This document shows positions 35,091-47,533 of a stretch of DNA of 64,000 nucleotides, in pieces (the stretch's first letter is position 1; each line of letters opens with the position of its first letter). The notes under the pieces were generated by a model that ran no database searches, was not told where the DNA came from, and saw nothing but the letters and a program-made list of their open reading frames with translations. The stretch spans positions 1 through 64,000 of the forward strand of contig JAUXYP010000013.1 in assembly GCA_030694265.1 (NCBI GenBank), in the 5' to 3' direction. Source of the DNA: Sulfuricurvum sp. (lineage in GTDB: Bacteria > Campylobacterota > Campylobacteria > Campylobacterales > Sulfurimonadaceae). The position numbers and the translations under genes are program-made.

Positions 35091-35612
35091 TTACCCTAAA
35101 GATATAGTGATAGTATCAAGGTATTCTAAGTGCCGATCCGGAAGAGTAGAGTCTATCAGAGATAAAAGCATCCTCATTGTACCGCCATGAGCACAAATCA
35201 AAACGTTACCCTCTTTAGGGAGTTCATTTAAAAAACTCTCAATTCGTGATTGAAACATAAGCGACGATTCGTCACAGACAAACCGATGCCACTCCTCTTT
35301 GGAATCCAACGCATCGGGATTAAAGCTATCCATGGCTTCGATTTCAGAAAAGGTTTTCCCCTCAATGGAGGGTTTAAAACGCACTTCTCTGAGGCGTGGA
35401 TCAATGGTGCAGGAGTGTATTCCTATGGTCTCCAATGTTTGGATACACCGTTTTAAATCCGATGAGTAGATACGGGCAAACTTTTGATGCAATAGATGTT
35501 CTATTTTGTTATGCTCAAAAAGGGTGTTGTCGATGGAGATGTCAGTGTGCCCGATGTATCTTTGTTGATAAGTTATATTAGGTGCCGCATGGCGTAGAAG
35601 TGTTAGTTCCAT
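35091..35612 (-). CDS. cobC: Histidine phosphatase, alpha-ribazole phosphatase type
   Basis: 173 residues with the phosphatase motif LLRHAAP, a second core VLICAHGGTMR, and Glu between them. Removes the 5'-phosphate from alpha-ribazole or cobalamin phosphate. Last gene of the cobalamin operon, overlapping cobS by 10 nt, which decides this call over a general phosphoglycerate mutase-like enzyme. Confidence 0.83.
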   Translation of the reverse strand: MELTLLRHAAPNITYQQRYIGHTDISIDNTLFEHNKIEHLLHQKFARIYSSDLKRCIQTLETIGIHSCTIDPRLREVRFKPSIEGKTFSEIEAMDSFNPDALDSKEEWHRFVCDESSLMFQSRIESFLNELPKEGNVLICAHGGTMRMLLSLIDSTLPDRHLEYLDTITISLG

Positions 35613-36349
35613 GTTAGTAATACGGCTAAAATCAAAATGAGTTCAACCCCCTCCAGCGACATTCCCAAAACATCACCATTGATAAATCCGAGTGATTTTT
35701 TAGTGAGGATGGAAAGGAAGAGAGCCATGCTGATTCCAATAAAGAAAAAGGAAAAAAAAGGCCAAGAGAGAAAGAAAAATCCAATAGCGCCATAAATTGC
35801 AATAGCGATCAGAAGCGGAAACAGGGTAAGGCTTTCCTGCAGTTTCACCACAAATGAGGAGCGAAAATCATGGTAGTTGATGAGAACAAGGAGCGCAATA
35901 CGGCTGATTATGCTAATGGCGATAAAGGGTAAAAAGAGGTGGTGCATCAACAGCGTCGAGAGGGCGGTGATTTTGAGGATCAGGAAACTGACCCCGTAAA
36001 GAACCCCCATTGCTCCCACCGAGGGTTCTTTGATGATCACGTAGGGGTCTTTGCCGCTGTGCTTGGCATAAACGGCATCGGCAACATCGATGATCGCTTC
36101 GGTATGGATAAATCCGTACAGGGCCATGTACATCACGCTGGATATGATCGCCGCAAGCCATCCCAACGGTTGGAGAGCCACGAATACGCCGATTGTGATA
36201 GTTGAGAGTAACAGCCCCACAAACGGGAGGGTAAGAAGCATACTCGCAAGAACCTGCGGGCGGGAGAGATCGTCGTTTGTCCCAAAGCGGATCGGGAGAG
36301 CCGTGAAGTAGCTCAGCGCGAACTTAATCCCCAGATAAATTTGTTTCAC
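35603..36349 (-). CDS. cobS: Cobalamin (5'-phosphate) synthase
   Basis: 248 residues, six to seven membrane segments with the family features SYFTALPIRFG at the start and GFIHTEAIIDVADAVYA. Joins adenosyl-GDP-cobinamide to alpha-ribazole (phosphate) in the membrane. Overlaps the upstream Cys-rich gene and the downstream cobC. Confidence 0.93.
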   Translation of the reverse strand: MKQIYLGIKFALSYFTALPIRFGTNDDLSRPQVLASMLLTLPFVGLLLSTITIGVFVALQPLGWLAAIISSVMYMALYGFIHTEAIIDVADAVYAKHSGKDPYVIIKEPSVGAMGVLYGVSFLILKITALSTLLMHHLFLPFIAISIISRIALLVLINYHDFRSSFVVKLQESLTLFPLLIAIAIYGAIGFFFLSWPFFSFFFIGISMALFLSILTKKSLGFINGDVLGMSLEGVELILILAVLLTWN

Positions 36350-36764
36350 ACGGCACCTCGCTCATGATTTTCAGCCAATCACGGTCGAACACTTTTTTAA
36401 TGTAGCTCTCCCTATGAGGAACCAAACACCCCGCACAATTTTGGTGGATAGCGGTCTCGCTGATGTACTGGTCTCCGTCGGGACTCTCGATAGAGCAAGT
36501 GCTGAAAAGGGTTTTGTCCTCTTCCTGTTTAAATCCCTTGTCGTTGAATCGGAAGTTGGGGCAGGCACACAAGTAGCAGTTGAGCTCAGGGGTGTCGTGG
36601 CATTTTTTATTCTCCGCATAAAGGGGGCAGAACTCGGATTCTTGTATCACCATATTTTCAAATCGGAAATATTCGATGACCTCTTGCTCATTTAGATGAG
36701 TCAGTTTGTTCATGATGGCGCGGTGTTTGGCCGCATGTTCTTGGAACCATTGGTTATAAGACAT
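36324..36764 (-). CDS. Nine-cysteine protein of the cobalamin operon, not recognised
   Basis: 146 residues, no signal peptide or membrane segment. Cys at 46, 55, 63, 66, 68, 90, 110, 113 and 139, including CYLCAC and CAGC. The pattern fits an Fe-S or zinc site. It overlaps cobQ upstream and cobS downstream, so co-expression is certain and a cobalamin task is likely. Cobalt handling, corrinoid reduction or an electron-transfer role are all possible; none is shown. Confidence 0.8.
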   Translation of the reverse strand: MSYNQWFQEHAAKHRAIMNKLTHLNEQEVIEYFRFENMVIQESEFCPLYAENKKCHDTPELNCYLCACPNFRFNDKGFKQEEDKTLFSTCSIESPDGDQYISETAIHQNCAGCLVPHRESYIKKVFDRDWLKIMSEVPCETNLSGD

Positions 36765-38094
36765 GGTTCAGGATCCTTTCTATATCAATTTCTTTTCTCA
36801 TCGTGGCGATAAAGCTGTCGATGGTCGTTTTTTTATAAGTCTCAAATGCCTCATCCTCAAAAAGTCCGTGAACAAACGTCCCTTTAATAGGACCTTTCTC
36901 ATAGACAAGCGGATATTTAGCACTTACACCGTGATGGATCTCAAATCCCTGTATAATCTTACCGAAGAGGGGATATTCTCCTTTTTTGAGCACTTTTTCT
37001 TTTTGAAAAATGATAGTGTCATCGATAAATCCAAGTGCTTCTTCGCGACTCGGCTCTGCCGTCTCGACACACTCTTCATCGATAATGGCGTCAAACATCA
37101 TCTGATACCCGCCGCAAATCCCTAGTATTTCTTTTTGCCGTTCTTTGAGTGCTTCGAACAGCCCCTTTTTTTTAAGCCACTGCAAATCTTTGATCACCAG
37201 TTTGCTTCCGGGGAGGATAATGAGATCAAAACTCTCCAGCGAAATATTGGAGGTGATGAATTCGACGAAAATTGTCTCATCGGCGATAAGCGGTTCAAAA
37301 TCGTTGTAGTTGCTCATCGTTGGGTAGTTGATAATCCCGATTTTTTTCGCGGGGTTAGGTTTGTTCTGGACGAAATTTTTGAGACTTTGGGAATCTTCAA
37401 ATCCGAGGTTGAGGGGGAGATAGGGGAGGACCCCAAGCACCGGGATGCCAAAACGCTCTTCGATGATATTCACCCCTTCGTCAAAGAGGCTGCGATCACC
37501 CCGAAATTTGTTGACAATCACCCCGATGACATTGGCTCGTAATGCTTCGGGGAGGAGATTATAAACTCCCCAAATCGAAGCGAACACGCCCCCCCTCTCG
37601 ATATCGGCGACGAGGATGATCTTGGTGTTGTATTTTTGCGCGATGTAAATATTGGAGAGGTCTTTGTCCATCAGGTTCAGCTCCACGGGACTCCCTGCCC
37701 CCTCACATACGATACACTCATACTGATGGCGTAAATACTCAAAACACTCATTGACAGCAGGTTTGAGGGTATCGAGATCACGGTAGTATTCGCGAACGTC
37801 TTTGTCTTCGACTACTTGCCCTTTGACGATCAGCGAGGCGCTGTTTCCGTGTCCCGATTTTAGCAACACAGGATTGAGGTGGTAGCTCGTCGGTATCCCC
37901 AGCACTTCGGCCTGAAAATACTGGGCGATAGCGATTTCGCTCCCATCATCGCAGACGCGGGAGTTATTGGAGACATTTTGGGCTTTGAACACCCCGACAT
38001 TGATTCCATGCTCTTGCAAAAGTCGCCCGATAACAAACGTCAGGGTCGATTTCCCCGCATCGGACGAGGTGCCGAAAATAGAGATCGATTTCAT
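36754..38094 (-). CDS. cobQ: Cobyric acid synthase
   Basis: 446 residues: N-terminal dethiobiotin synthetase-like P-loop (FGTSSDAGKST) and C-terminal class I amidotransferase (nucleophile in GICGGYQMM, His in FEIHHG and FVHGLFED). Amidates four side chains of adenosyl-cobyrinic a,c-diamide. Somewhat shorter than the usual 480-500. Overlaps cbiB by 4 nt. Confidence 0.94.
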   Translation of the reverse strand: MKSISIFGTSSDAGKSTLTFVIGRLLQEHGINVGVFKAQNVSNNSRVCDDGSEIAIAQYFQAEVLGIPTSYHLNPVLLKSGHGNSASLIVKGQVVEDKDVREYYRDLDTLKPAVNECFEYLRHQYECIVCEGAGSPVELNLMDKDLSNIYIAQKYNTKIILVADIERGGVFASIWGVYNLLPEALRANVIGVIVNKFRGDRSLFDEGVNIIEERFGIPVLGVLPYLPLNLGFEDSQSLKNFVQNKPNPAKKIGIINYPTMSNYNDFEPLIADETIFVEFITSNISLESFDLIILPGSKLVIKDLQWLKKKGLFEALKERQKEILGICGGYQMMFDAIIDEECVETAEPSREEALGFIDDTIIFQKEKVLKKGEYPLFGKIIQGFEIHHGVSAKYPLVYEKGPIKGTFVHGLFEDEAFETYKKTTIDSFIATMRKEIDIERILNHVL

Positions 38095-38954
38095 AACAGG
38101 ACTCCTAGGGTTAAAAGAGTGATGAGAAACATATCGAGCCGCTGCCGAAGCGATAATGCGGCATGTACATCCTCGGCAGTAATCTCTTTGCGCCCTTCTG
38201 CGAAATAGGGCTTTGCTTTGAGTGTTCCAAAATAGGAGGTCGGCCCACCAAGTGAGAGATTCAGTGACACTGCCATCGCCGCAATCGGGTATCCCGCATT
38301 AGGGCTCTCGTGCAACGCGCCGTAACGCCATGTTTGTTTGAGTTTTCCGAGTCTGCCAAAAAGAACAACTATTATCACCGCCGTAATACGGGAAGGGATG
38401 TAATTTAAAATATCGTCCAACCGTGCGCTTACCTTGCCAAATTTTTCGTAACGATCATTACGGTAACCTACCATCGAGTCGAGGGTATTGACCGCTTTGT
38501 ACACAAACAATCCGACTAACCCAAATAACAAAAGATAAAACAGCGGTGCGATCACCCCATCACTCAGATTTTCGGCATAGGTCTCGATGGCGGCTTTGTT
38601 GATGTCGCTTTCGCTGAGGTTTTCCGTGTCACGGCTGACGAGGTAGCGGATCGATTCGGGATGTGACAAGACGTTATGGACGCTATCGTAGAGCATTTTA
38701 CCTGCGATTCCTGTGGAGGCGATAACTCCTAAAATCCACGGATTGTGGATCAGGGTGATCGGATAGACGAGGGTTAACACACACGCTAACAACCAAAACA
38801 CGAGCCAAACCCCGCGTTTTATTGTTGGGGTATAAAACCTCTTTTGAAAAGCGGTGATGAAATCCCCCATGAGTACGACTGGGTGACGGATGAATTTAAA
38901 TTCTCCGAAGATGCGGTCGATGACGTAGGCTATCAGGGCTATGTCAAAAAACAC
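38091..38954 (-). CDS. cbiB: Adenosylcobinamide-phosphate synthase
   Basis: 287 residues, about five membrane segments. Conserved parts: RHPVVLMGDFI, AIETYAENLSDGVIAPLFY, and NLSLGGPTSYFG. Attaches the aminopropanol (phosphate) linker to cobyric acid. Downstream of the phosphate decarboxylase that makes that linker. Confidence 0.94.
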   Translation of the reverse strand: MFFDIALIAYVIDRIFGEFKFIRHPVVLMGDFITAFQKRFYTPTIKRGVWLVFWLLACVLTLVYPITLIHNPWILGVIASTGIAGKMLYDSVHNVLSHPESIRYLVSRDTENLSESDINKAAIETYAENLSDGVIAPLFYLLLFGLVGLFVYKAVNTLDSMVGYRNDRYEKFGKVSARLDDILNYIPSRITAVIIVVLFGRLGKLKQTWRYGALHESPNAGYPIAAMAVSLNLSLGGPTSYFGTLKAKPYFAEGRKEITAEDVHAALSLRQRLDMFLITLLTLGVLL

Positions 38955-39946
38955 AGCGCCTCCTCGAATCGTTTCAGATCAGGGGTACTTTTTACCGCGA
39001 TCCGAACATATCGCTCATCCAAAAAATCAAAATTAGAACAATCCCTCACCATAATCTTATAAGGAATGAGCTTTTCCTGAAATTCTTTGGCAGACATCGA
39101 AACAAGCCGTACGAAGAAAAAGTTCACATCGCTCTCATATATCTTCTCAAAAAGCGGAGAGTTTTCGAGGAGGTTTTTCAGATATGTTTTTGCCTCCGCA
39201 TTCAGCGTATACGATTGCGTACGAAACGGCTCATCGTTAAGAGCCGTGATGAGAAAATGGCTGTCGAGTGCCGAGATTTTCCACAGAGGCTCTTTTTCTT
39301 TAAGGGCGCGGATATTCTCACGCGAGGAGAGGACGACTCCGATCCTCACCCCTGCGCATCCGTAAAATTTGGTCTGTGATTTTAAAACATAAAGTTTGTC
39401 GTAGGTTTGCAGGTATCGGCTGACCGATTCTCCACCGCAAAATTCCAAAAATGATTCATCAATGAGAACCGTGCACCTTTTTGCAATCCACTGTTTCATC
39501 AGGGTATCTACATCATAGTAGTGTCCGTCGGGAGTAGAGGGGTTGACGAAAATGACCAGAGAACCTTCGGCAATCTCCGTATTTATACACTCAAAACGGT
39601 TGATGAGATTCACCTTTTTGCCGTGGAGAATGGCCGCTTTTTTGTATTCCAGATAGGCGGGGGAGTAGATGGTGCAGGTGGGCTGATCGAAAAAGCACAT
39701 GAGGGAGAAAATCGCTGAAGATCCTCCGTTAAAAATTTCTATCTCATTTGTATTAACCTTATAATAGTCGGCTAACGTGTGTGTTAGTTTTGTGTAATCG
39801 GGATAGGCATTGAGCGATACGCAACTAAAATCGACCGACGGAGTGATGAAGTTGATATTGCTAGAGAGATCGACAATCTCCTTGGGCGTGCAATCGCAGT
39901 GTTTCGCAAAGCCGTTCACATCTCCTCCGTGAGTGTAGGTCGTCAT
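38939..39946 (-). CDS. cobD: L-threonine-O-3-phosphate decarboxylase (PLP, CobD type)
   Basis: 335 residues, aminotransferase fold. PLP lysine in LKSQTKFYGCAGVRIG; start HGGDVNGFAKHCDC resembles CobD/CobC. Makes aminopropanol phosphate from threonine phosphate (or ethanolamine phosphate from serine phosphate in norcobamide makers). Which one is used cannot be read here. Needs a kinase supplying the phosphoamino acid; see the gene at 42120. Confidence 0.9.
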   Translation of the reverse strand: MTTYTHGGDVNGFAKHCDCTPKEIVDLSSNINFITPSVDFSCVSLNAYPDYTKLTHTLADYYKVNTNEIEIFNGGSSAIFSLMCFFDQPTCTIYSPAYLEYKKAAILHGKKVNLINRFECINTEIAEGSLVIFVNPSTPDGHYYDVDTLMKQWIAKRCTVLIDESFLEFCGGESVSRYLQTYDKLYVLKSQTKFYGCAGVRIGVVLSSRENIRALKEKEPLWKISALDSHFLITALNDEPFRTQSYTLNAEAKTYLKNLLENSPLFEKIYESDVNFFFVRLVSMSAKEFQEKLIPYKIMVRDCSNFDFLDERYVRIAVKSTPDLKRFEEALCFLT

Positions 39947-40434
39947 TTTAACCGTATCTCCAAGCCCAATTTCACTTCATACACTTCATCGCAGATACGG
40001 GCAAGAGTCTGACCGATGATGCCGCTGAGATCGACAAAGCGGCGGCTAAGGGGATCGTTTGGGATTACCCCCGTGCCAACATCGTTGAGGACAAACACGA
40101 TGTTAGCATCGATGTTTTCGAGTTCTTCGATGGCACTGATGAGAATTGCTTCCTCTTCCTCGATCCGATTGAGCAGCCACATGGAGATGCAGTCGATTAA
40201 ATAGGTGTGATTGGGCTGAATAGCAGCGGCGAGGTTACGGGTTTCTTCGATCGTTATAAAATCATTTTTTCGGGTGTTTCGGTGTTTTGCAATACGGGTT
40301 TCCATTTCGCTGTCGCCGAAACGGTTGTCGTACGTTGCGAGATAGTAGGGCTGATGGGTAGAGAGCTCTTTGGCATGATGTTCGGCCAGTGAGCTTTTGC
40401 CCGATTTTTGCCCTCCGAAGTAGAGTATTTTCAT
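39943..40434 (-). CDS. cobU: Adenosylcobinamide kinase / adenosylcobinamide-phosphate guanylyltransferase
   Basis: 163 residues with P-loop YFGGQKSGKSS at the very N-terminus and the active-site region RIAKHRNTRKNDF. Salvages cobinamide and makes adenosyl-GDP-cobinamide. Overlaps both neighbours by 4 nt. Confidence 0.92.
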   Translation of the reverse strand: MKILYFGGQKSGKSSLAEHHAKELSTHQPYYLATYDNRFGDSEMETRIAKHRNTRKNDFITIEETRNLAAAIQPNHTYLIDCISMWLLNRIEEEEAILISAIEELENIDANIVFVLNDVGTGVIPNDPLSRRFVDLSGIIGQTLARICDEVYEVKLGLEIRLK

Positions 40435-41498
40435 TGTAAAAAGCTCTCTACTTTACGGGTGATTTGCTCTTTGGTAATACCGTTGAGGCAGGCGTACATG
40501 AGTGCGCCTCCCGCACCGACACCCTCTTTGGCTTCCCCTTCATCATAGAGTTTGAGGGCAGGATGCTGTGTGAGTGAAAAGTCAAAATCGACATAATACG
40601 CATTGATTTTAAAATCGAGCATTTCGAGCAGCCCTTTAATATCCGAATTAGGGTCTTCATAGACCCATTTGGTGGTACACAGTGCGAGTTTATGGCTATT
40701 GATAGTCTGGTTCGTGTGCTTGAGGATTGAATTGATCACCAAAAGCAGTGCGGCCATCTGTGTACCGCCGGCCAGTACCGTGGTAATCTTGCGGTTTCGA
40801 AGCCCCAGCACAAATCCCGCATTGAACATGAGCATGTTATCGCTCACGCGAGAGAGCTTTTCAAACAAATCTTCATTCTCGCCACAGCTGGAAAGAGCTG
40901 TATCAACAACGTGCTCTTTTATGCTGCTTGGGGCATTTTTAAAACTGCTGCTAAATTTTTCACGGGCATCGTACCCTAAAGCCAAAGCGGTTGCGAGGGC
41001 GGTAGTCGTACCGGAGGGAACCGATTCTCCTAAAATAATATAGTCGCTGTAGAAGCTATATTCTTGCGCAAATTCTAACCCTTTTTCAAACAGCTCCATC
41101 GCATTGATATTGGCCCCTGTGTTGATTGAACCGCTTGGGACAATCCCAAAGTCATAGAGCGGAAAGTAGTCTATTATTGGTTTTACTTCGAGTCCAAGGT
41201 CAAGCAAAGCGAGTGTATTAAAGGGGCGAAGGAGATGAACTGCTCGTGTGATAAGGCCTGGTGTTGGGACTCCTTTTTGGGTTGTGGCGATATTTTTGAG
41301 ACTTTTCACCTCTCCGGTGCAGAGGAACTCAGCATCGAGCGTCGGAGTCAGATGAATCATTCCGGGAATCCCAGCTTGGGTAATTCCCTCTATTTTAGCT
41401 GTATCGGTATTGCTGAGACTTAGAAAAAATGTCCCCTTTTTACCGCGTAAATATTCAGCAAAATCGCTGCTTCCCACAATCGTTTTAACAGTCATCAT
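40431..41498 (-). CDS. cobT: Nicotinate-nucleotide:dimethylbenzimidazole phosphoribosyltransferase (CobT family)
   Basis: 355 residues. Family features: GVPTPGLITRAV, GIVPSGSINTGANINAM, and ILGESVPSGTTTALATALALG. Makes alpha-ribazole phosphate from the lower-ligand base. The sequence belongs to the divergent CobT group seen in Campylobacterota and archaea rather than the enterobacterial type. Next to bluB, which supplies the base. Confidence 0.87.
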   Translation of the reverse strand: MMTVKTIVGSSDFAEYLRGKKGTFFLSLSNTDTAKIEGITQAGIPGMIHLTPTLDAEFLCTGEVKSLKNIATTQKGVPTPGLITRAVHLLRPFNTLALLDLGLEVKPIIDYFPLYDFGIVPSGSINTGANINAMELFEKGLEFAQEYSFYSDYIILGESVPSGTTTALATALALGYDAREKFSSSFKNAPSSIKEHVVDTALSSCGENEDLFEKLSRVSDNMLMFNAGFVLGLRNRKITTVLAGGTQMAALLLVINSILKHTNQTINSHKLALCTTKWVYEDPNSDIKGLLEMLDFKINAYYVDFDFSLTQHPALKLYDEGEAKEGVGAGGALMYACLNGITKEQITRKVESFLQ

Positions 41499-42123
41499 TT
41501 GTCCTTTTTGAAATTACTTCACAGAGCTCTTTTTTCGTTTCCCAGTTGAGTGTCTGTAGTTCGGGTACCTCTAAAAACTCAGAGACATAGCCTATCGTCA
41601 GATAGGCGATCAGTTTGTAGTCTGAAGAGATCTCTAATATCTTTTTGATTTTTTTAGGCTTGAGAATACTCACCCACCCAACGCCTATGTTATAGGCACG
41701 TGCCATCAGCCACAAGTTTTGGATGGCGCACACGACACTGTACTCACCGACTTTCTTTTGGGTAGTTTGCCCTAAAATCGCTTTAGTAGGCTTTTTGTAG
41801 AGGACGGCGATATTGTAGGCGGCTTCTTTGATCCCCTCGAGCTTCAGGGAAGGATAGAGGGTGTCGTTTCGAAAGATTTTTTTTGCTTTTTGATTCTCTT
41901 TTTTAAACTCTGAGTATACCTTTTCACGTAGGTCTGAATCGTCAATAACCATAAATTCCCATGGTTGCGAAAATCCCACGGAGGGGGCGCAATTGGCGGC
42001 ATAAAAAATCGCTTCCAAAATTTCGGGTTCGATGGCTTTATCAATGTAGCGATTGCCTCTGACATCGCGGCGTGCCGAGAGAATTATTTGAAGCGCCTTC
42101 GCGTCTTGGAGAGTGAAATTCAC
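41485..42123 (-). CDS. bluB: 5,6-dimethylbenzimidazole synthase (BluB)
   Basis: 212 residues, nitroreductase fold. The BluB-type start SARRDVRGNRYID and CAPSVGFSQPWEFM and a later GVGWVSIL are present. BluB breaks reduced FMN with oxygen to give dimethylbenzimidazole. Its presence means true cobalamin can be made when some oxygen is available. Overlaps cobT by 14 nt and the kinase gene by 4 nt. Confidence 0.9.
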   Translation of the reverse strand: MNFTLQDAKALQIILSARRDVRGNRYIDKAIEPEILEAIFYAANCAPSVGFSQPWEFMVIDDSDLREKVYSEFKKENQKAKKIFRNDTLYPSLKLEGIKEAAYNIAVLYKKPTKAILGQTTQKKVGEYSVVCAIQNLWLMARAYNIGVGWVSILKPKKIKKILEISSDYKLIAYLTIGYVSEFLEVPELQTLNWETKKELCEVISKRTNDDC

Positions 42124-42926
42124 ATAGAACCTTTTGGATGGGTGTCCAAGAGTGTGATCTTGGCAAGGAGGCTTTGATAGTCCCGATGATTAATATAGCG
42201 GCTAGTTGCGTAATACAAAAGCGCGTATCTCATATAGGGGACAAACTCTCTAAATTTTATATTGCTGTTATAGTGTGTTAGCAAGAGATTGATTTTGGCA
42301 TAATAGTTTTTCTCCTCTAAACACCATGAGATCGCAACGACAGCTAGATCAAACAAAAAATCCCCCTCGCATGCCTCGATAAAATCAAAAACACCGCTAA
42401 GCTCATCGTTTTCAAAAAGGACATTGTCCAAAAACAGATCTCCGTGTATCACCCCATCCCGCGAAAATTGAAGATCGAAGGAATCAAAAATTTCCTGAAA
42501 TGGCAAATAGTTTGTTTGATGAATAAGGGATTGGAGGCGTGAAGATTCAAACAAAGGGGTATTTATGGACGTGAGTCCGGCAGTTTGTGCATGAAAACGG
42601 CGCATAAACCCAGCCATTTGGATGATGTGATTTTCATTGGCGTTTTCGAGACTTTGTCCGTTGAGTTTTTCATACAGTACGCACGGTTTTTTCTGGAGAA
42701 AAAAAACATTACTGCTGTGTTTGGTAACGGGAAGAGCAGAGAGGTTTAGCAGCAAATTTCTCTCTTCTAAAATAGCATCCGTAGAAGCTGATTCAAACAG
42801 TTTAAGTACGCCGCGATCGGTCAGATAAACACTGTCGCTGACCCCATGTTCGGTGGGGGTCAATATCGTACAAGAGAGGATACTGGAGACTTCTTTTAGA
42901 GTGATAGCTGTTTTGACCCCCATCAT
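42120..42926 (-). CDS. APH/ThrB2-fold kinase in the cobalamin operon, candidate threonine kinase
   Basis: 268 residues, aminoglycoside-phosphotransferase/homoserine-kinase-II fold: catalytic H161-G-D163 and N168 (HGDLFLDN), metal-binding D181 (VFDFIEAC). Cytoplasmic. It sits between btuC and bluB with 4-nt overlaps. The pathway needs phosphothreonine for CobD, usually from PduX (GHMP kinase), which is not in this operon. Homoserine kinases of this fold act on a close analogue of threonine, so this may be the missing kinase. That is inference; a homoserine or choline kinase is the alternative. Confidence 0.75.
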   Translation of the reverse strand: MMGVKTAITLKEVSSILSCTILTPTEHGVSDSVYLTDRGVLKLFESASTDAILEERNLLLNLSALPVTKHSSNVFFLQKKPCVLYEKLNGQSLENANENHIIQMAGFMRRFHAQTAGLTSINTPLFESSRLQSLIHQTNYLPFQEIFDSFDLQFSRDGVIHGDLFLDNVLFENDELSGVFDFIEACEGDFLFDLAVVAISWCLEEKNYYAKINLLLTHYNSNIKFREFVPYMRYALLYYATSRYINHRDYQSLLAKITLLDTHPKGSM

Positions 42927-43876
42927 CGCCCTCTATTTCGATGTAAGATTAGATAGATAAAAAATGGTCCGCCCAGCAGCGAGGTGATCACACCGATGGG
43001 AATATCGGAAGAGGCTCCCAGATTTCGGGCGATCAGATCACATAAAACCAAAAAGACTCCGCCGTAAAAAAAGGTAGGAAAGATCAGCTGATCACTGCTT
43101 TTTTGATACAGCGTTTTGATGATGTGGGGAACAATCAGCCCTACAAATCCGATCGGCCCTACGACGCTGACGCATACGGCAATGGCAAGTGAGGTGAGCA
43201 ACAGGAGCAGCATGGTGATTTTTCCTACTTCGATCCCTTTGAGAAAAGCAAAATCGAGTGATGCCAGCAGCAATTTTACCTCCTTGCGATATCCATGGAT
43301 CGTTGCCAATAGTAAAAGAGAAACACCGGCGACCGGATAGACTAAACCAAAGCCGATGATATTCAAACTTCCCATCGTGAAGCGGACGATGGAGTAGCTT
43401 TGTGAAAAATCGCTAAGAAAAAACAGGACCATAAGGGCCGCTGAATAGAAAAATGAAAGGGCTACTCCCACAAGCAATAATGAGTTCGTTTGCGTTGTTT
43501 TAAGCGATCGGGAGATTAAGAACAAAACAAAAACGGTGAGCAACGCTCCACCAAAACTAAACAGGTACTGCCAAAAGACGGTTCCCGCAAAAAAGACGAT
43601 GGCGATAGCAGTTCCCAACGTCGCACCGCTCGCAACACCCAGAGTAAAAGGGGTAGTGAGCGGATTGCGAAACAGACTTTGAAATACCAGTCCCGCAAGG
43701 CTCAAGATTGCACCGCTAAAAAAAGCGATCGCAACCCTAGGGACGCGCAGTTGCCAAAATAACATGTGCGAAGAGGATGCGTTGTTGAGCATATCCTCAA
43801 AATGCAGATCAATTTGTCCAAAGAATGGAGCAATGACGATTAGGACAATTGCGAGGAGGATGCTAAAGAGTTTCAT
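42923..43876 (-). CDS. btuC: Cobalamin ABC transporter permease (BtuC/FecCD family)
   Basis: 317 residues, about 10 membrane segments, with the FecCD-type segments RVAIAFFSGAILSLAGLVFQ, PLTTPFTLGVASGATLG and GFVGLIVPHI. Context (btuB, btuF, btuD) makes cobalamin the likely cargo. Overlaps btuD by 14 nt. Confidence 0.9.
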   Translation of the reverse strand: MKLFSILLAIVLIVIAPFFGQIDLHFEDMLNNASSSHMLFWQLRVPRVAIAFFSGAILSLAGLVFQSLFRNPLTTPFTLGVASGATLGTAIAIVFFAGTVFWQYLFSFGGALLTVFVLFLISRSLKTTQTNSLLLVGVALSFFYSAALMVLFFLSDFSQSYSIVRFTMGSLNIIGFGLVYPVAGVSLLLLATIHGYRKEVKLLLASLDFAFLKGIEVGKITMLLLLLTSLAIAVCVSVVGPIGFVGLIVPHIIKTLYQKSSDQLIFPTFFYGGVFLVLCDLIARNLGASSDIPIGVITSLLGGPFFIYLILHRNRGR

Positions 43877-44576
43877 CGTAATTCACCATAAAATTTCCGT
43901 CAATATTTTTGATTGCGTTTCCAAAACAGCTTTTGAGATGCTTTTGCTCAAAAAACGGTTCACATGGACCATGGTATTGAACTTTCCCTTCTTCTAAAAA
44001 CAAGATGTTATACCTCAGTTTATACGCTAGATTGAGGTCATGGGTGATGATGATCTTATTGTGAAAATAGGGGCTGTTTTTGAGGAGTTGATAAACGGTT
44101 ACTTTTTTTGCCTGATCGAGATTTGCGGTGGGTTCATCGAGAATAGTATACAGTGCTTGATGGACCATTGCTCCCCCTATGAGCAGTAAGGCTGATTCTC
44201 CACTGCTGAGTTTATGGCATTGCTTGTTCTTGAGATGTGTTATCCCAAGTAGTTCCAAAACGTTATGTAAATGATCGGATTGTTTTTCTTGGATGATATT
44301 GAGATTCAGGTAGTCCCATACGGTGAGATATTCGTCGTAAATACCCAGTTTGGCAGGGATAAAATTGATGTATTGTGCGCGTTGCTTCGCAGAGAGGAGT
44401 GCAATTTTTTGACCCTCTATCGTAACGCTATCGTTATGAATAAGATGACAAATTGCTTTTGCCAGTGTCGTCTTTCCACTTCCATTACTTCCGAGAATAG
44501 TTACGTTTTGATTGTGTTCAAGCTTAAAGCTAATGTGCTTTAATATCTGATGAGAGAGATTATCGACGTGCAGCAT
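43863..44576 (-). CDS. btuD: Cobalamin ABC transporter ATPase
   Basis: 237 residues: Walker A GSNGSGKTT (29-37), signature KLSSGESALLLI, Walker B YTILDEPTANLD, and H-switch IITHDL. Same unit as btuC and btuF. The signature LSSGE is a mild variant of LSGGE. Confidence 0.9.
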   Translation of the reverse strand: MLHVDNLSHQILKHISFKLEHNQNVTILGSNGSGKTTLAKAICHLIHNDSVTIEGQKIALLSAKQRAQYINFIPAKLGIYDEYLTVWDYLNLNIIQEKQSDHLHNVLELLGITHLKNKQCHKLSSGESALLLIGGAMVHQALYTILDEPTANLDQAKKVTVYQLLKNSPYFHNKIIITHDLNLAYKLRYNILFLEEGKVQYHGPCEPFFEQKHLKSCFGNAIKNIDGNFMVNYDETL

Positions 44577-45387
44577 CGGTTAAAAATCCTCTCATATCGG
44601 TTATAAACAAGCCTAATCGCTGGCTCGGATTACTAGAGTACTCTTTGTCCTCGACGTAAATCTTTTTGTTTTTGACGGCATTGATCGGAACGCCCAGCCA
44701 CGGTTTGATCAGCGCCTCTTTGGTCAGCCCAAGCTCGTGGGTATTGGGGGCGAGTAAAATCACGATATCAGGATTGATTGCTATGATGTTCTCGAGATTT
44801 AAAACTGGCTGCCCCTTTCGTTTGCTTTGCAGAGCATTGCGATTTCCGCTGGCACGGATAATGTCTTCAAAATAGAGATTTTGCCCTGAAACATAGAGGG
44901 GTTTTGAGAGATCCGTATTGTGGCCGAACACCATCAAGATCTTCTGATTTTTGACAATCCCTTTGAGGGAATGAAGCTTTTGATCGAGTTCGCTTACGAT
45001 GTGTTTTCCCTCATTCTCTTTATTCACATAGTGGGCAATAGAGTAGATGGATTGACGGATAGAGGGATACGTGTCTATTTTGATGACCATCGTTTTGATC
45101 CCAAGCTGTTCGAGCTTCTGAGCAAAATGAGCGTTGTTTTCCTGCATGATCACCATTGAGGGATTGAGAGAAAGTATTTTCTCCAAAGAGGGGGCAAAAT
45201 ATCCCCCGACTTTGGGTTTTGATTTGGCTGCGGGAGGATAATTGCAATACTCGGTATTAGCAATGATACTATCCTGCGCACCAAGGGCAAAGATGGTCTC
45301 GTTGATAGCAGGACTTAGTGCAATAATGCGCTCTTGAGCAAATAGAACACCGTGTAATAAAACGAGCAGGCATACTCTCAATAACAT
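44560..45387 (-). CDS. btuF: Periplasmic cobalamin-binding protein
   Basis: 275 residues with a signal peptide (about 1-17) and the FecB/BtuF fold (RIIALSPAINETIFALGA, NPDIVILLAPNTHE). Delivers the corrinoid to BtuCD. Overlaps both btuD and the upstream DUF4430 gene. Confidence 0.88.
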   Translation of the reverse strand: MLLRVCLLVLLHGVLFAQERIIALSPAINETIFALGAQDSIIANTEYCNYPPAAKSKPKVGGYFAPSLEKILSLNPSMVIMQENNAHFAQKLEQLGIKTMVIKIDTYPSIRQSIYSIAHYVNKENEGKHIVSELDQKLHSLKGIVKNQKILMVFGHNTDLSKPLYVSGQNLYFEDIIRASGNRNALQSKRKGQPVLNLENIIAINPDIVILLAPNTHELGLTKEALIKPWLGVPINAVKNKKIYVEDKEYSSNPSQRLGLFITDMRGFLTDAARR

Positions 45388-45722
45388 GCTTCAACCTTAT
45401 AAATCCACAGCATACTTTTTGCATCTTGTAACGGATAATTTTCTGCTGTAGTATGGACTGATCGACCATCGATGAGGTAAAACCACCCAAATTTTCCAAC
45501 TTGAGAGGTTATCCCGTCAATCGAGCGGACAAAAAGAAATCTTCCCGTCTTGCTTGTTTGAACCATACTGACTTTTTGAAGTACTTCAAGAGCACTCACG
45601 CCAGGAGTATAATGCGTTTGGACAATTTTATCAGGAGTACCATTGCCATACACAATGGTGACTTCGATATCGTTTGCAAAGATACTTGTCCATAAAAGGA
45701 AGAGTACAATAAGCACTTTCAT
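45378..45722 (-). CDS. Small periplasmic DUF4430 (transcobalamin C-terminal-like) protein
   Basis: 114 residues from the ATG at 45722: signal peptide MKVLIVLFLLWTSIFA, then one DUF4430 domain with GVSALEVLQKV and KFGWFYLIDG, the hallmark Trp-aromatic-turn seen in the C-terminal domain of transcobalamin and intrinsic factor. The ATG shares a base with the btuB stop (TAATG), and the end overlaps btuF. Position between outer-membrane receptor and periplasmic binder suggests a corrinoid-handling role; not shown. Confidence 0.8.
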   Translation of the reverse strand: MKVLIVLFLLWTSIFANDIEVTIVYGNGTPDKIVQTHYTPGVSALEVLQKVSMVQTSKTGRFLFVRSIDGITSQVGKFGWFYLIDGRSVHTTAENYPLQDAKSMLWIYKVEACY

Positions 45723-47533
45723 TAAAATGACGCTTTCAATCCTAGATAACATGCACGTGGAGACGTTGCATATCCATTTACAGTTTGATAGTATCTATCG
45801 GTTATGTTATCAATTTTACCATAAAGCTGGACCGAGTTGGTAAGATCGTAATTTACGACAGCATTGGCAATGGTATAACCTCCTGTTTGTGCAGAAACAG
45901 TATGTGTTCCATACGTATACTGAACTCTTGTGCCAACATACTCTCCAAATGCTCCGAAATGAAACTTCTCAATACCGTAATAATCGATTCCAATTTTGAG
46001 GTTCTCTTTTGCGCGACGCTCCAAGTCAAACCCATCTTTGTCTTTCGCACTGAGTTGTGTGTAGTTGACAGATAGTAGAGTATCGGCAAGAATTTGATTT
46101 TTATATTCTGCTTCTATCCCTTTAAAGGTTGATGTCCCGATGAGATTGTTGTACTTTACATTTGCACTGTCCCAAGCAATCATATTATCCGTAGTATTGT
46201 AAAAATAAGTGAGTGTTACAGATTTGTATCCCAAAGAGATATCATAGCTTCTGGTGGATTCAGGCGTTAAAGTACTGTTCCCATAGGTTGGTGTGAAGAG
46301 TTGAAATGCAGAAGGGACATTATAGCCAGTACCATAGTTACTAGAGAGATAGAACTCTTTATTAAAATTATGTTTGATCCCTATTTTTCCGGTTGTTTTA
46401 TCATTAAACGCATCATAGTCATCACTCCTAAGAGATTCTGTAATGATTGTTTTATCGTTGATGATATTATTGTTGGTAATCGACAATCCCTTGTCGGTAT
46501 ATTTTTTATTCAAAGCATTGAGGTGTTCAAAACTTTTATAATCAGCCCCTATTATGATAAAGTCTTTTTGATTATTGTATGGAATGCGGGAAGTAAGTCC
46601 ATATTCTTTGGTAATACCGTCATATTCTTTTGTCGATGTATCTTGCGGATAGTCCCTTTCAAAGGTAGATGATTTGGCATAGATATTGACTTCGTTGAAG
46701 CTATCGATATGATTGAAGTTAATTGAAGAAAGTTTATCGTGCACGGTACTGTTATAAATACCATTGGGTGCGCTGCTTGGATCTCCTTCATTTTGAGCAT
46801 TAATAATAGTATGTAAAAGGTTGATTTTATTGGTTTCATTGATCTTAAAGCCGAGCTTTAAAGAGGTGGTCGCATTTTTATATCCATCATCTTCCAGCGT
46901 ATTGATATCTACACCTTTGGGTGCAACAGCTGTAAAACCATCGGTCTCGATAATATTGGAATTAACTTTAAAATAATAAGCATCGGTTGCATAGGAGGCA
47001 GCAGCGCCATATTTTTTGGTATTAAAACTTCCATATTCACCAGTAACTGAACCATGAAGTCCTTTTTGAGCAGTTTTCGTAATGATATTGATGACCCCTG
47101 CACTTGCATCATTTCCCCAGATCCCACTTTGGGCTCCTTTGATAAGTTCGATTTGCTCGATATCGGTGACCATTAAATGTTCAAAAGCAGATCCCACGAT
47201 ACTATTTGATGGATCGTTATATCGGATTCCATCGATGAGGACAAGCACTCTGCTTGTATCAAATCCTCGCATAAATACAGAGGTTGACTTTCCAAGTCCA
47301 CCATTACTGACAGTACTAATCCCTGAAACTAAATTTAGCGCATCAGCGACAGTGGTAATATGTTTTTCTTCTATTTCTGCAGCGGTGATGATGTTGGCAT
47401 TGGAAGTGATGGTACTTAGAGATTGTTGTGTTTTAGTAGCACTGACGACGATTGGATCGACAGTGAGTGTATCAGCCCCTAGTGAGGCAACAAGTATCAC
47501 GGATAGCGACAGTGAGAAGGTGTGTTTAAACAT
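45722..47533 (-). CDS. btuB: TonB-dependent cobalamin receptor (BtuB-like)
   Basis: 603 residues: signal peptide (about 1-20), TonB box DPIVVSAT, plug domain (ALNLVSGISTVSNGGLGKST, FMRGFDTSRVLVLIDGI), 22-strand barrel and terminal Phe (LGLKASF). First gene of the operon. Its ribosome site AAGGAC lies in a hairpin arm (see 47534). Confidence 0.9.
   Translation of the reverse strand: MFKHTFSLSLSVILVASLGADTLTVDPIVVSATKTQQSLSTITSNANIITAAEIEEKHITTVADALNLVSGISTVSNGGLGKSTSVFMRGFDTSRVLVLIDGIRYNDPSNSIVGSAFEHLMVTDIEQIELIKGAQSGIWGNDASAGVINIITKTAQKGLHGSVTGEYGSFNTKKYGAAASYATDAYYFKVNSNIIETDGFTAVAPKGVDINTLEDDGYKNATTSLKLGFKINETNKINLLHTIINAQNEGDPSSAPNGIYNSTVHDKLSSINFNHIDSFNEVNIYAKSSTFERDYPQDTSTKEYDGITKEYGLTSRIPYNNQKDFIIIGADYKSFEHLNALNKKYTDKGLSITNNNIINDKTIITESLRSDDYDAFNDKTTGKIGIKHNFNKEFYLSSNYGTGYNVPSAFQLFTPTYGNSTLTPESTRSYDISLGYKSVTLTYFYNTTDNMIAWDSANVKYNNLIGTSTFKGIEAEYKNQILADTLLSVNYTQLSAKDKDGFDLERRAKENLKIGIDYYGIEKFHFGAFGEYVGTRVQYTYGTHTVSAQTGGYTIANAVVNYDLTNSVQLYGKIDNITDRYYQTVNGYATSPRACYLGLKASF

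Follow-up and report, generated by a model that had tools for sequence, protein, structure and literature searches.

A candidate APH-fold L-threonine kinase in cobamide operons of Campylobacterota

Introduction

In Salmonella enterica, the phosphothreonine used by CobD is formed from L-threonine by PduX (EC 2.7.1.177) (PMC6249242). Two L-threonine kinases are established, PduX and BluE (PMC7242693, PMC8123684). EC 2.7.1.177 is listed as a pathway gap in Haloferax (PMC8305020), and a survey of 11,000 species dropped pduX and cobD as criteria, as most genomes of organisms verified to produce cobamides are without these annotations (PMC6461909).

The window considered here, that is, the whole analysed stretch of 64,000 nucleotides of a Sulfuricurvum sp. 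contig, contains a cobamide operon with cobD but without pduX. Which enzyme, then, could provide CobD with phosphothreonine? The initial annotation pointed to a kinase gene in the same operon, suggesting a non-orthologous L-threonine kinase.

Results and discussion

Structure of the operon

The kinase gene lies within a 15-gene operon on a single strand, extending from btuB (47533) down to cobC (35091). Functions were assigned using Pfam and NCBIfam; for btuB, btuF, btuD, btuC, cobU, cobD, cobS and cobC the assignment combines the best match, which is below the curated cut-off, with gene order. The genes are given in the order of the operon.

45722..47533, minus strand: btuB, TonB-dependent B12 receptor (TIGR01779, 302 bits, below cut-off)
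45378..45752, minus strand: DUF4430 protein (PF14478)
44560..45387, minus strand: btuF, corrinoid-binding protein (Peripla_BP_2; BtuF is the best NCBIfam model, below cut-off)
43863..44576, minus strand: btuD, ABC transporter ATPase (BtuD-like, below cut-off)
42923..43876, minus strand: btuC, corrinoid ABC transporter permease (FecCD, 259 bits; BtuC is one of the top NCBIfam models, below cut-off)
42120..42926, minus strand: candidate L-threonine kinase, APH fold, homoserine-kinase-II-like, 268 aa, start perhaps at 42923
41485..42123, minus strand: bluB, 5,6-dimethylbenzimidazole synthase (TIGR02476, above cut-off)
40431..41498, minus strand: cobT, TIGR00303-type phosphoribosyltransferase (TIGR00303, above cut-off)
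39943..40434, minus strand: cobU, adenosylcobinamide kinase/guanylyltransferase (PRK05800, 134 bits, cut-off 161)
38939..39946, minus strand: cobD, L-threonine-O-3-phosphate decarboxylase, proposed to use the product of the kinase (TIGR01140, 224 bits over the full length, cut-off 290.55 missed)
38091..38954, minus strand: cbiB, adenosylcobinamide-phosphate synthase, attaching aminopropanol phosphate (PF03186, 284 bits; TIGR00380, above cut-off)
36754..38094, minus strand: cbiP, cobyric acid synthase (PRK00784 and TIGR00313, above cut-off)
36324..36764, minus strand: Cys-rich protein of 146 aa, conserved in cob clusters by family alignment (no Pfam or NCBIfam match)
35603..36349, minus strand: cobS, adenosylcobinamide-GDP ribazoletransferase (TIGR00317, 70 bits, below cut-off)
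35091..35612, minus strand: cobC, alpha-ribazole phosphatase (His_Phos_1; TIGR03162 is the best model, below cut-off)

The kinase ORF is uninterrupted in translation over its 268 residues. Thus the interval 42120-42926 given in the initial annotation stands, with the correction that the gene is on the minus strand; the plus-strand reading was rejected, as it contains many stops in the same register. The overlaps with btuC and bluB noted there were found as well. Both are of 4 nt, which suggests translational coupling. Since most homologues begin at the second methionine, the true start may be at 42923, a position judged from sequence that would still overlap the btuC stop codon. Homologues with approximately 28-75% identity are kept across many genera, and the catalytic residues are invariant in the aligned set; therefore, this is no chance ORF.

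No cobalamin riboswitch or any other Rfam family was observed at gathering score in the region 30000-52000, and the yield of promoter and terminator scans was no greater than in shuffled sequences.

The DUF4430 gene occurs between btuB and btuF in several relatives too, and its product is possibly a part of corrinoid uptake. About 26 cob loci encode a homologue of the Cys-rich protein (e.g. L021:15738-16160 and L183:8726-9169). These are nearly all examined cob clusters, including clusters without the kinase. The invariant motifs in the alignment of this family are FCPL, KCH, LNCYxCxCP-like and HQxCxxCxxPH-like.

Sequence and predicted structure of the kinase

The sole Pfam match of the kinase is APH (PF01636; 74.7 bits, cut-off 23.2), in agreement with the earlier placement of an APH-fold kinase in the cob operon. 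The Pfam search produced no match to the GHMP kinase domain (PF00288). The nearest curated family by sequence is homoserine kinase II; however, the NCBIfam cut-offs of this family are missed by approximately 185-195 bits (86.9 of 271 bits for PRK05231 and 60.1 of 255.9 bits for TIGR00938).

The motif of the kinase reads VIHGDLFLDNVLF...GVFDF, with the catalytic part located as follows, by translation and with the ORF start taken as 42926.

42423..42449, minus strand: catalytic motif IHGDLFLDN, kinase residues 160-168

All 13 rows of the kinase alignment share Lys42, Glu55, His161, Asp163, Asn168 and Asp181. Among these are residues with established roles in the APH family, namely the ATP lysine, the catalytic base of the HxD motif, the asparagine and the metal(Mg)-binding aspartate. 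The motif HGDLFLDN had been described as intact, and indeed H161, D163 and N168 do not vary among the 13 relatives.

The AlphaFold2 model (pLDDT 91.4) has the predicted APH fold. Among solved structures, homoserine kinase (2ppq) is nearest, with Z 26.6 and an rmsd of 2.4 A across 255 residues; the next family is N-acetylhexosamine kinase (Z 23.1). Thus the likeness to homoserine kinase II proposed initially holds for both sequence and fold, although the protein is far below the family cut-offs. Besides the fold, the operon kinase and homoserine kinase II (TIGR00938/PRK05231; 2ppq) have the motif HxDLFxDN in common. Homoserine is an isomer of threonine, and this was counted, alongside the match to 2ppq, in favour of threonine as the substrate.

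GHMP kinases of the genome

The genome containing the window (2.15 Mb, 23 contigs, listed as 100% complete) encodes only two GHMP kinases. One is the homoserine kinase ThrB (TIGR00191, 276 bits, cut-off 168), and the other is IspE (PRK04181, 334 bits, cut-off 191). PduX is a GHMP kinase. Hence this genome is without PduX, and its homoserine kinase step is already filled. The initial claim that the operon has no PduX is therefore correct and, with both GHMP kinases typed by score, extends to the entire genome. PduX was found in none of the checked CobD genomes either; its absence is firm for the window genome, and for the others it is based on a count of GHMP kinases, of which a sample was typed. 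A second APH match in the window genome (C9, 546 aa) was set aside, as its sequence resembles that of a phosphatase/protein-kinase fusion.

The same observations bear on the reading that the gene is in the operon by accident and encodes a homoserine kinase for threonine synthesis. Homoserine kinase II is the nearest family by sequence and fold, but both of its cut-offs are missed by the wide margin given above, a separate ThrB above the curated cut-off is present, and, as described below, linkage to cob genes is kept across families, unlike what characterizes homoserine kinase II. We consider this reading highly improbable.

CobD and probable corrinoid salvage

CobD of the operon and S. enterica CobD (1lc5) can be aligned over their full lengths (E 2.4e-24). 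The operon protein retains the N-terminal HGG, the context S-x-T-K of the PLP lysine and the C-terminal arginines of the S. enterica enzyme. Since these residues are kept, the premise of the initial annotation that CobD needs phosphothreonine is reasonable.

The proposed pathway is then as follows. Firstly, the APH-fold kinase, a relative of homoserine kinase II, would phosphorylate the side-chain hydroxyl of L-threonine with ATP. Secondly, CobD would decarboxylate L-threonine-O-3-phosphate to (R)-1-amino-2-propanol O-2-phosphate. Finally, CbiB would join the latter to adenosylcobyric acid. The kinase would thereby stand in for PduX in Campylobacterota.

CbiC, CbiD and CbiA were not found in the window genome by searches that do find members of the class with ring synthesis, and the genome keeps CbiP, CobD, CbiB, CobU, CobT, CobS, CobC and BtuBFCD. 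Hence the operon probably works on imported corrinoids, in salvage of late precursors or remodelling of cobamides, adding a new linker and nucleotide loop. In this organism, the kinase step would contribute to the salvage or remodelling of corrinoids taken up through BtuBFCD. Other genomes with the kinase contain CbiC and CbiD, and so the kinase appears to serve both lifestyles.

Co-occurrence of the kinase and CobD

We analysed 298 genomes of the class that are at least 90% complete. The kinase and CobD are both present in 25 genomes, the kinase only in one, CobD only in four, and neither in 268. CobD was distinguished from HisC by score, with CobD at 199 bits or above and HisC-like proteins at 190 bits or below; CobD matches start from profile position 1. 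The Fisher test yields p = 4e-31 by genome and 2e-9 by genus, both ignoring tree structure, and the pattern is present in several families (f1, f4, f6, f9, f20). In the first survey of 60 relatives, the kinase was found in 14 genomes and CobD in 18; CobD is present in all kinase genomes except G001, whose contig ends soon after the kinase, in cobT. The trees of the kinase and CobD in 26 genomes are correlated (r 0.86, with none of 5000 permutations as high). Shared ancestry and species history inflate both the co-occurrence and the tree correlation. One scan of genome contigs with the kinase yielded only a homoserine-kinase-II-like protein from a Rhodospirillaceae MAG.

One possibility is that the kinase phosphorylates (R)-1-amino-2-propanol or ethanolamine directly, so that free linkers are salvaged and the substrate of CbiB is formed without CobD. 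Indeed, choline/ethanolamine kinases and the microcompartment aminopropanol kinase 6ef6 have the same fold; the latter aligns with the kinase model at Z 20.2 and 15% identity over the alignment, and a shared fold of this kind does not show function. However, such an activity would make CobD unnecessary, whereas only one of 26 kinase genomes is without CobD, and homoserine kinase is clearly nearer both in fold (Z 26.6) and in sequence. Direct phosphorylation of the linker is thus rather unlikely.

Linkage to cob genes

Neighbourhoods were inspected in 30 kinase genomes, including that of the window. The kinase is inside a cobamide cluster in 27 of them, the exceptions being G041, G047 and G277. 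In G041 and G047, it is outside the cob cluster, and CobD is encoded elsewhere in the genome. The arrangements vary, kinase-bluB-cobT and bluB-kinase-cobT both being found. The kinase and cobD are side by side in G164, G268, G231, G330, G176 and G063, and the order in G264 is cbiB-kinase-cobS. In G284, the kinase neighbours cbiA and genes resembling cbiL and cbiK, and more than 1 Mb separates it from cobD. Retention of the linkage despite such reshuffling argues for a role in the pathway and not for a frozen gene order. Co-occurrence with cobD, listed as a check in the initial annotation, is thus seen both in the genome counts and as physical linkage.

In-place replacement of the kinase between two groups of one genus (approximately 44-47% identity, against approximately 75% for CobD) was considered and dropped, since the kinase seems to evolve at about twice the rate of the neighbouring genes.

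Membership in the operon does not in itself name the substrate of the kinase. The general linkage to cob genes, bluB and cobT among them, would also agree with action on another cobamide intermediate, such as cobinamide or alpha-ribazole, or with regulation of the pathway. However, cobinamide phosphorylation and base activation are already accounted for by the CobU and CobT homologues of the operon, and it is CobD that the kinase tracks, which makes a role of this kind very unlikely.

Genomes with only one of the two genes

The only genome of the 298 with the kinase and without CobD is G277. Its homologue (L186:7887-8807) has no recognised cob genes around it, and no CobD was found in the genome; it may represent contamination or a protein with another role.

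CobD without the kinase was observed in G062, G040, G248 and G334. Together with G056 and G057, these are six CobD genomes with neither a member of the kinase family nor a PduX-like GHMP kinase. They may have another source of phosphothreonine or use serine phosphate, or the function may be lost. In G006 and G022, contigs break off within the kinase slot or next to it (L098 stops in bluB, and L097 begins at cobT), and the kinase is probably missing due to these breaks only.

In G062, nothing is encoded in the slot between cobD and the Cys-rich gene (L183:8533-8726), where related genomes have the kinase; cobD, cbiB, cbiP and cobT remain. An APH protein of this genome scores 16 bits against the kinase profile and was rejected as a family member; it is probably AmgK, since it is encoded beside an anmK-like gene and a nucleotidyltransferase. 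G040 encodes a 296-aa APH-type kinase (L206:1474-2364) with the motif HCDIFLDN, a possible divergent stand-in for the operon kinase family. An extra GHMP kinase in G040 was rejected as PduX, being heptose-kinase-like.

Serine is a close substrate, and the operon enzyme could be an L-serine kinase or a dual serine/threonine kinase, with CobD making ethanolamine phosphate and norcobamide as the product. SMUL_1544 is a CobD homologue. Norcobamide synthesis is known within the class, in Sulfurospirillum multivorans, where it is governed by SMUL_1544 according to a title cited in PMC6461909. However, phosphoserine is already an intermediate of the established serine synthesis pathway, so a kinase would be less needed, and we regard serine phosphorylation as unlikely. 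It is likewise doubtful that the choice of the kinase between threonine and serine sets the linker (aminopropanol or ethanolamine) and thereby controls formation of cobamide versus norcobamide in Campylobacterota.

Comparison with known systems

The proposed reaction and place in the pathway are those of PduX, but PduX is a GHMP kinase, whereas the operon kinase has a predicted APH fold and no GHMP match. BluE, reported in Rhodobacterales, is a precedent for a non-orthologous L-threonine kinase in cobamide synthesis, the role proposed for the candidate described here; the two are set side by side by description only. In Methanosarcina mazei, the missing threonine kinase is compensated in another way, by the bifunctional CobD-kinase MM2060. 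There both activities reside in one protein, whereas the operon of the window has separate genes.

A further analogue is CbiU (Dehre_1608) of Dehalobacter restrictus, a homoserine-kinase-like protein encoded in a corrinoid operon and proposed as an L-threonine kinase where pduX is missing (PMC4285132). The situation is similar in that a homoserine-kinase-like gene is found among corrinoid genes without pduX. However, CbiU is a TIGR02535 match whose first annotation was phosphoglycerate mutase, whereas TIGR02535 is absent from the NCBIfam matches of the operon kinase up to E 0.1. Aminopropanol kinase 6ef6 has the same fold as the kinase model and a related substrate, but belongs to a microcompartment, as stated in the title of the entry.

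No paper on this APH kinase was found in the open literature; most subscription journals are outside it, and priority is uncertain. Non-orthologous threonine kinases are a known kind, and it is the APH family and the class-wide distribution that appear new.

Proposed function

Co-occurrence with cobD, linkage to cob genes and the absence of PduX give good support, as a prediction, to the initial reading of the gene as a non-orthologous L-threonine kinase. From these sequence data we infer a kinase that quite probably makes phosphothreonine for CobD, replacing PduX in Campylobacterota. If so, an APH kinase that tracks CobD would close the EC 2.7.1.177 gap in one class and serve as a marker in annotation. 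A homoserine-kinase-like enzyme would then have been recruited into B12 assembly along another route than PduX.
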